Source: Plazaster borealis | Lineage: Eukaryota > Echinodermata > Asteroidea > Forcipulatida > Labidiasteridae | Assembly: GCA_021014325.1 (NCBI GenBank) | Contig: CM037471.1 | Span: 21,782,818-21,846,817 of the forward strand | DNA: 64,000 nucleotides | Direction: 5' to 3' | In this document: positions 28,701-31,700 of the stretch, piece by piece | Layout of the letters: each line of letters starts with the position of its first letter | Numbering within the stretch: position 1 is the stretch's first letter | Position numbers and translations under genes: made by a program | Notes under the pieces: generated by a model | The model's input: the letters and a program-made list of their open reading frames with translations, nothing else | Databases searched by the model: none | What the model was told of the DNA's origin: nothing

Positions 28701-31700
28701 TTACAGCGTACGAGCATGATTGTTATTAACATCACCCGTCAGGATTCATTTGACGTTGAGATCAACGCGCACTGGCTACAAACATTCAAAACCATTTACT
28801 TCAACCTCTGCATTTATTACAATTTTTAAAAACTACCTACATGTATATATTTCCACATGAATGATTCAAAAGTCAAATTACCAACTTCAGGAGAAGTGGG
28901 TTTTTATCTTTTAAAGAAACCACCCTAGTTATTCTGGAATCAATACATTAGTGTTTCACAGACATAAATGATCACTGTTAGTGAATCATTGTTATGGTTC
29001 ATACCTTTGCTATGTGCGTTCATATCTTTGCTATGTTCATTGGCAGAAATTTGCATAAAGCTTTGCATCCTGACAAGCTAGATATTTGAAAGGAGTTAAT
29101 GTGGGAAAACAAGTTACACATATGCAAGAAAGCGTCTTAAAATACTGGGAAATCTTTACAGCAAACATTTTGAAAGGGGATAATTGGGATATTCCTCAAG
29201 CTATTTCAGAAATTGATTGATTTTTTAGTAACTATTCACATAGATTAAGTTTGGGAAAACACCAGAGTCAAACATTAACATGCTGTCACCATCTCAAACA
29301 AACACTTCAAGAACGAATCACCTTGTAGTTCATAGCATGTGATTATTTCATGTCACAAGTAAGACGATGTCTTGCTGAAATAACCTCTGATTTAATTTTA
29401 CACCAGACGTATTCACTGAACAATAGATTTCACAACAATTTGTAACACAACTGCTGCAAATAAAAACCAAATGAAAATTCTCCATGGAAATTTCCACTGA
29501 TCCAAAAGAATTGCCCCACGTCCAAAAGGCGTTAGACACTGACCAGCATCCTCCTCTATGTGTCTACACTACCCGCAGGTTTCAAGTCACATACAAGTGT
29601 TAGCTCGGAGAAAGTCAAGGGAACTTCAGTCTTTATGCAAGGTAGGGCCCTCTTTAGTTAAAATAGGGCTTGCTTGTTTACAAGAAATTGCATGGGTCTT
29701 CTTTTTTTTGATCTTCATTCTTATCTGAGCAGGTGTCAAGTCACATGCAAGTTCTGGCAAAGCGTTCATCCAGAGACATTGCAAAGCAGTTTAAGGTAGG
29801 GTTACGTGAGAGACAAGTAGGCAAGGAGGAAATTGTCATCATTTGTGTGTGTTCTAATTATTCGGATCCGCCCCCATGTATCCGTTTACACTCCTCGGAC
29901 CTCCTCAATTACTCAATTTGTCGTCTCATCTCTCTTTGATTCTGCAGCTGAAGTTAAAATATATATAACAAAATGTTTTCAGTAAGTTGCTTTCAAGCAA
30001 TAATATTGGAAATTAAAACTGATATTAGAAAAAAGAAAGATACTGTTTTAATCAGCCTTGTTCCTAGAATGGATTAAGAACCAAATCTCTACTCTCAAAC
30101 CATCCCTGATCTCTCATCATCTCCTAGGAACATTTACAACGAATGTTGATTTTGAGATGTACCATAAGTGATCAGAAATTGTTTTAACAGCTGTCATACA
30201 GAGTTTTTGTAGGAACCATTCAGGCTTGGGTTTGTTTTTTTGGTTCTTGTTGGGTCCATAGAAAAGGAAAGTATCCTTCATAAAATGTGAATGACTACGG
30301 GAGCTTTTTTAGAGGGCACCAAGGCTAAGACAAGAGCAATGAAAGGGGAAGTCCCACGCATTCAAGCATTAATTTTTTTACTTTGGGTTCCTATGTACAT
30401 TGCTTTTACTTGTGATGGAAACAAAGATGTGCTGGGCCAAACGCTCAAATACAATGTACATGCAAAACTTTCCGCAGCCATTAAACGTAGGAGACTCAAT
30501 CCGTGCCTTGGTACCAGCCAGAAAAAGGGAAGGTACAACATTGGTAAAGACCATTATGTCTCCCAATATGAAAGAAAAGAAAAACAGTTTTCAAATGACA
30601 AAACAAATTTGCTTACTATCTATGTGGTATTTTGGGGGGATACACGTACATCAGTGAGAATTCAAAGTCGAAATGGACGCTGGGGACTTAGCTACCAATG
30701 TTGTACCAAACACATCCCACTAGAATGAAGATGACTGTCCATCATTTCTGACTTGTCATTCCAGTTGTCACCACTCTGAGATTTTATCCAGTCTACACAC
30801 TAGCACTAGCTTGCAGTTGGCATCATATGTCTCACTGTCACTGCACACCGAATTGCACCTCTCAATTAGAGTAGCTTTCACTTGCTCTTCTTACTTTTCT
30901 TCTATTTCTTGTTTTTATCTTTTTTCGTAAGGGCTACTCCCCAGAGAACATTGTGGTCACTTTAACTAGTTTCTTGGTGCATATTAAATTATATGTACCT
31001 TCTAGTATTCTATATTTTAAACAACACACCGATTCCCATCTTCCACATGTCTTAGCATCATCCGGGATCCCCCACGTATTCTTTTCTCACCTGGTGTTCA
31101 CGCCTGCTCGATGCACCCCTGTTTGTCTTCAAAGTTTGTCAAATTTGGAAACTTTCAATCCTTGATTGACGACGTTGTCTCTGGGGTTTACAAAGAAAGT
31201 GAAAGTGAAACATAGCAGCTTTTTGGGGGTGATTCAAGAAACAAGAAACAACTTTGTTTATAATCTTGTCAAATGTTAAACTGGATCCCAGTGACATAAA
31301 CTATAGGGGGCAGAACCTTTGCCCCCGCCCCCACTTGAGATTTTTTAAAAATGCACAAATTAATGGTTTGGTACACCAAAAGCCCCCCCCCCCCTGAAAA
31401 ACAACAATTTTGAAATATTCCCCAGATGAAAATGTCTAGTTGCGCCACTGCCCTGTACCCTCTCCAAACTCAGACAGTTGCCTTCCCCTCTGCTCATTCC
31501 GGTGATGCCCTCTCCCTCTACTGACACTTGGATGAACATTTCAAGTGTTCAAATCAGAAAGTATGAACCCCAGCAAACCCAACCCAGCGCAGCCCCCTCC
31601 CCTCAGCTCTTATCCCTTTATTCACGCCCTCCCACCCTCCCCAAGTAAACCCAACCCAGTGCAGCCCCATCACCTTCCCCAAGTAAACCCAACCCAGCGC

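Follow-up and report, generated by a model that had tools for sequence, protein, structure and literature searches.

The TEAD gene of the starfish Plazaster borealis contains two adjacent homologous exons, 3a and 3b, each of which encodes a version of helix 3, the DNA-recognition helix of the TEA domain, and the TEAD proteins of related starfish carry one version or the other. The pair derives from an ancient exon duplication, and it is probable that splicing yields a TEAD protein with either helix, the choice mainly tuning DNA affinity, nuclear import or both. The usual account of TEADs is of a single, almost invariant DNA-binding domain whose regulation comes from cofactors such as YAP/TAZ and VGLL; if echinoderms and chordates select the helix by splicing, studies of one version may miss the other.

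The window analyzed here (64,000 nt of contig CM037471.1, assembly GCA_021014325.1, positions 21,782,818–21,846,817) contains a complete TEAD/scalloped gene on its + strand, whose coding region runs between an ATG at 10519 and a stop codon at 46123. Coding exon 1 (10519–10720; the first ATG is assumed to be the start codon) starts the TEA domain (VWSPDIEQ...KMYG), exon 2 (25645–25709) encodes helix 2, and exons 3a (29579–29641) and 3b (29733–29795) encode the two versions of helix 3, separated by an intron of 91 nt (29642–29732). A cassette exon (32474–32536) is followed by exon 4 (36824–36982; ...PYPAH), a short exon whose peptide matches P0004 (38568–38611), and an exon (39054–39222; VKPFSATAQ...) in which the linker gives way to the beginning of the YAP-binding domain. 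The remaining YAP-binding-domain exons (40394–40456, 41572–41679, 42104–42162, 43917–43998 and 44615–44767) and the last coding exon with the stop codon (46010–46123) were located by tblastn, such that the exons of both the N-terminal TEA domain and the C-terminal YAP-binding domain of TEAD/Scalloped proteins are placed. In P0004 and P0091, starfish proteins nearly identical to the product of the window gene, a Pfam scan gives matches to PF01285 and PF17725 above cut-off. Across the linker the protein shares 99% identity with Asterias amurensis and 97% with A. rubens, which suggests an animal closely related to Asterias.

A TEA profile run against the whole genome (560.6 Mb, 717 contigs) gives two matches, and these are exons 1 and 2 of the window gene; within the reach of this search, a second TEAD gene is thus rejected as a source of diversity. 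Exons 3a and 3b each occur once genome-wide and, to the extent that the best candidates searched exon by exon can show, this is the sole TEA-domain gene in the genome. Several other features lie in or near the gene. There is a match to the Histone 3’ UTR stem-loop just 5’ of coding exon 1 (10145–10189, + strand; 38.5 bits, gathering threshold 34), in a region (8800–10200) where no + strand open reading frame of at least 60 aa is listed, a recent 213-nt tandem duplication soon after exon 2 (25975–26406; copies 99% alike), and a weak tRNA match in a TEAD intron (39990–40062; 31.8 bits, gathering threshold 29).

Exons 3a and 3b are both 63 nt long and in phase 0, each with a CAG acceptor before it and an AAG-GTAGGG donor after it. 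The two peptides share 12 of 21 residues. At the DNA level 35 of 63 bases agree, and these are distributed over the first, second and third codon positions as 13, 15 and 7 of 21; the third positions are therefore near random, indicating an old duplication held by selection at the protein level. A chance resemblance is ruled out by a scan of the whole window for open segments of the form AG-63 nt-GT: there are 138 of these (80 on the + strand, 3a included, and 58 on the – strand), and 3b alone has more than 4/21 identity to 3a. Because exon 2 ends and exon 4 begins on a codon boundary, either copy joins the two in frame, as a reading made earlier from the sequence alone had claimed; the coordinates, frames, peptides, shared donor and extent of identity which that sequence-only reading gave for the two exons are all exact on recheck. 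The intron separating them has a U-rich tract and is the shortest in the gene model, the next being 424 nt. Its acceptor, at the 5’ side of 3b, reads GAGCAG (29727–29732), and splicing at the first AG would insert one Gln.

Eleven starfish-type proteins, annotated or predicted, were available for comparison, and each contains one copy only. The 3a peptide is found unchanged in six of them (P0091, P0094 and P0123–P0126) and the 3b peptide in the other five (P0003, P0004, P0005, P0006 and P0009), with none containing both or neither; products with one copy and without the other are thus present in proteins from relatives of P. borealis (11/11). The 21 residues of 3a are identical across Asterias amurensis, Acanthaster and Patiria, and those of 3b across Asterias rubens, Patiria and P0003. 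Patiria miniata provides three equal-length isoform pairs (X8/X9, X6/X7 and X3/X4) whose members differ nowhere but at residues 94, 99, 101 and 104–109, in support of the earlier proposal that the gene can make two TEADs that differ only in helix 3. This position-by-position comparison covers equal-length pairs; P0297/P0294 from bear and P0091/P0004 from Asterias are of unequal length and fall outside it.

P0003, a 3b protein, is the predicted product of a 1,064-nt contig. Given that the introns flanking the 3b region in the window are about 4 kb and 7 kb, a contig this short is most simply explained as derived from spliced RNA, and the last residues of P0003, which diverge from the other proteins after sixth-exon sequence, may reflect read-through. 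It was conceivable from the sequence-only reading, which had rested on genomic sequence, that 3b is a dead or decoy exon, but all 21 of its residues are conserved in Asterias rubens and Patiria, it is annotated, and it is present on the 1,064-nt contig. We regard this interpretation as exceedingly improbable and reject it on the conservation in other starfish.

The Patiria isoforms form a two-by-three grid in which either helix version is combined with an insert, a single Q, or nothing after helix 3. The insert corresponds to the peptide of the P. borealis cassette exon, which is 63 nt long and in phase 0, has good splice signals (acceptor TAAG, donor GTAAGT), matches part of isoform X2 from Asterias amurensis (P0123) at 100% identity, and was not part of the sequence-only reading. 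It occupies the same protein position as the 12-nt exon 6 of vertebrate TEAD1. A C-rich tandem array with units resembling CCCTCCCCAAGTAAACCC and several periods (31568–32412) ends about 60 nt 5’ of this exon.

Beyond the starfish, three protein searches returned 295 proteins, of which 180 have one helix-3 copy, 82 have two that are directly adjacent, six have two split by an intron-like stretch, two have two that are far apart, and 25 have none; these numbers are not frequencies, since the first search favored double forms, the best 120 matches were taken from each, and the rows are cluster representatives. Among echinoderms, tandem double models are found in two sea urchins (P0014, which is partial, and P0127) and a sea cucumber (P0010), Apostichopus has 3b, and Diadema and two crinoids have 3a. 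In the hemichordates, Ptychodera and Glandiceps have a 3a-like helix (ending KCK) and Saccoglossus has a 3b-like LAKR helix. Several of these echinoderm and hemichordate species have only one cluster representative among the matches listed, and a second form may therefore be hidden.

The double models raise the question of whether the two exons are exclusive at all. They could instead be ordinary cassettes, inclusion of both adding 21 residues after the domain and skipping of both giving a helix-less form that is possibly dominant-negative. The 82 proteins with adjacent copies are consistent with this, as are the proteins with a retained-intron-like stretch between the copies (30 codons in five TEAD1-type models, or 90 nt, and 38 codons in one seahorse TEAD3) and the fish, mammal and alligator models that lack both; many of all these have NCBI isoform names. 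Furthermore, the AlphaFold2 (AF2) model of the double form P0010 accommodates both copies in one helix (residues 100–161), in which the first copy forms helix 3 and the second prolongs it in a straight line, although confidence in this model is low (whole-model pLDDT 51.6, pTM 0.28). Against this, some double models are hypothetical or partial (P0022, P0034, P0058 and P0079), and the two copies together, which do occur in models from other echinoderms and chordates, are absent from all 11 starfish-type proteins, as is the form with neither. It seems unlikely that the starfish exons are simple cassettes, and we favor a largely exclusive choice between them.

The 91-nt intron suggests how such a choice might be enforced. 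It contains a candidate distant branch point (TTTAC, with the A at 29680), 39 nt from the donor, and for the OGDH-type arrangement of exons 4a and 4b the published study (PMC7969005) reports mapped branch points and a threshold for steric exclusion of about 50 nt from the donor. In both systems the intron is short, has a long U tract, and places a candidate branch point less than 50 nt after the donor, but the branch points are mapped in OGDH whereas that of the TEAD intron is a motif match. Steric exclusion of 3a and 3b through the distant branch point is thus possible; a conventional branch point (TTGAT, also a motif match, 21 nt from the acceptor and 70 nt from the donor) is available as well, and so steric exclusion stays a candidate.

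Comparable exchanges are present in chordates. In amphioxus there are three versions of the helix (Branchiostoma floridae P0192 and P0193, and the B. floridae hybrid record P0194) in proteins that pairwise differ only in the helix, together with double forms (P0093, P0095 and P0197). Vertebrate TEAD1 and TEAD3 models have an upstream copy with RKKVRE and a downstream copy with RRKSR; we presume that human TEAD3 uses the upstream-type helix. In nine chosen fish pairs of equal length, all nine differ within the helix only, and among TEAD1 models the upstream copy alone, the downstream copy alone, both, and neither all occur. The sequence-only reading knew of no mutually exclusive pair in vertebrate TEADs, and this does not hold, as annotated vertebrate TEAD1 and TEAD3 proteins carry such pairs. 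The TEAD1 models in which both copies are skipped, with RTRKQ joined to DQ or VTSM, come from fish, mammals and alligator (P0174, P0200, P0277, P0279, P0296 and others), and as predicted from their sequences these proteins would be without a recognition helix.

Protostomes present a simpler picture. None of the 63 named protostome proteins among the matches listed contains a tandem pair of different helices; 62 have exactly one helix type and one has none, and two of the 62 (P0007 and P0008) have the same helix twice, far apart. The count is of named proteins, contig proteins lacking a species name such as P0261 being left out, and a search with a mollusc query likewise gave, among the best 120 of 1,343 matches, no named protostome with a second type of helix. 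P0261, a jgi contig protein from the mollusc-query search, has a single LAKR-type helix (LAKRKVKDCQNTAK).

A neighbor-joining tree of 24 helix peptides, built without support values, contains an echinoderm 3b group and, apart from it, 3a with Ptychodera. The neighbors of the Saccoglossus LAKR helix are Ciona and the 3b group, that of the amphioxus LAKR helix is a mollusc, and the vertebrate upstream copies fall with amphioxus X4. With such mixed groupings the tree does not support orthology of the ambulacrarian and chordate pairs. It is nonetheless conceivable, and we advance it tentatively as somewhat short of probable, that a helix switch was present in the deuterostome ancestor with its intron of about 90 nt kept since, and that the starfish, urchin, sea cucumber, amphioxus and vertebrate TEAD1/TEAD3 arrangements are its versions. 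Splicing could then allow animals with a single TEAD to adjust the terminal step of the Hippo pathway.

The two copies differ unevenly along the helix. The first nine residues (VSSH[I/M]QVLA) are shared except for an Ile/Met difference at residue 94, and the view expressed in the sequence-only reading that helix 3 is almost invariant applies to this segment, VSSHIQVLA being nearly so in the returned proteins, but not to the second half, which varies by phylum and by vertebrate isoform. The basic cluster in the second half is RRKSR in 3a (4/5 basic) and KRSSR in 3b (3/5 basic), and the 3b helices of sea urchin and sea cucumber are similar to the latter (KRTAR and KRTSR); the LAKR helices of Saccoglossus and amphioxus are unlike echinoderm 3b in having 4/5 basic residues. 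With the first half of the helix thus largely preserved and the second half, including the basic cluster, changed, we favor the interpretation that the swap would tune affinity or import, which is likelier than a new recognition motif.

The residues of TEAD4 that we take to contact bases, Ser100 and Gln103, lie within VSSH[I/M]QVLA and are unchanged between 3a and 3b, which counts against the proposal that the two copies read different DNA motifs, as does the presence of the whole segment in both. The location of the exchange does lend this proposal some credence, as it is helix 3 through which the domain meets the major groove (PMC5876656). The same paper reports that mutations in the regions contacting the minor and major grooves lower promoter occupancy, the specificity of binding and the transcription driven by YAP. 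On balance, a change of targets appears improbable, and tuning of affinity or import is the reading we retain. As to import, a study of the Drosophila Scalloped nuclear localization signal (NLS; PMC3121794) describes the C-terminal basic cluster as critical, with a consensus printed as >3/5, and this cluster maps inside exon 3. With 3/5 basic residues the 3b patch is, to judge from its sequence, weakened yet at the edge of the printed consensus.

The 3b helix is compatible with the TEA fold. The AF2 model of P0004 (3b) has helices at residues 37–49, 69–81 and 87–108, corresponding to the three-helix TEA domain with the last helix mostly from exon 3b; block-mean pLDDT values in the three are 84, 82 and 73 (58.5 for the whole model, pTM 0.44). 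A Foldseek search with this model returned, in the best 50 of 1,445 matches, titles that all refer to YAP-binding-domain entries and none to the helix. That 3b retains the domain, and that protostomes seem to manage with one helix (62 of the 63 named proteins among the matches listed), would also be expected if the two copies were functionally equivalent, each being kept only because it is needed for expression in some tissue. However, the copies keep their own identities in starfish and other echinoderms, with 3a ending LCK or MCK and 3b carrying LAKR, and we consider equivalence to be rather doubtful.

We therefore propose the following sequence of events, in which the regulation of the choice and its effect are the more speculative elements. 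The 63-nt recognition-helix exon of the only TEAD gene found in the starfish was duplicated in tandem long ago; splicing would proceed from exon 2 through one copy to either exon 4 or the cassette exon, such that a YAP-responsive TEAD could be made with either helix. The choice of copy is likely to be regulated and largely exclusive, perhaps helped by the very short intron, and the swap would mainly tune DNA affinity and/or nuclear import, not sequence choice. If so, a starfish with one TEAD gene would be a clean setting in which to test this choice in growth, development and regeneration.

The closest counterparts are the NCBI TEF-1-like isoforms of Patiria miniata and Asterias, which contain both helix-3 peptides letter for letter, with the difference that there they are already annotated; the comparison is by names and sequences. 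The helix is likewise present as two copies of 21 residues in vertebrate TEAD1/TEAD3, which for human TEAD1 means exon 5 and the region immediately before it. There, annotated isoforms that are otherwise the same carry the upstream or the downstream form, and in the five TEAD1-type models with read-through the stretch between the copies is of nearly the starfish length. The vertebrate case differs in its residues (ARKKVREIQAAIK versus ARRKSRDFHSKLK) and in having double and null models too, with exon borders that are inferred from proteins, and 21 residues are too few to settle whether either vertebrate copy is orthologous to 3a or 3b.

Parts of what happens in vertebrates have been noted earlier. 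According to PMC10167241, exon 6 of human TEAD1 is a cassette of 12 nt; the forward primer published for it reads SRDFHSK, and the preceding exon, by number exon 5, is therefore the downstream helix copy. A review states that SRSF1 favors inclusion of TEAD1 exon 5, and a drug study (PMC10325915) reports skipping of an ‘exon 5B’. In the literature searched these pieces are not described as a recognition-helix swap, and there is no description there of a TEAD helix-3 exon pair as such, though supplements or Abascal et al. 2015 may already list TEAD.

More generally, the starfish pair resembles the tandem duplicated exon substitutions described in PMC9741552 in consisting of adjacent homologous exons of the same phase that are alternatively included and ancient. 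TEAD has no occurrences in the main text of that paper, and the TEAD pair differs in that the swapped part is a DNA-recognition helix. Exons 3a and 3b thus add another example of alternative homologous exons, one that annotation already records as isoforms but that lies in an unusual and important place.
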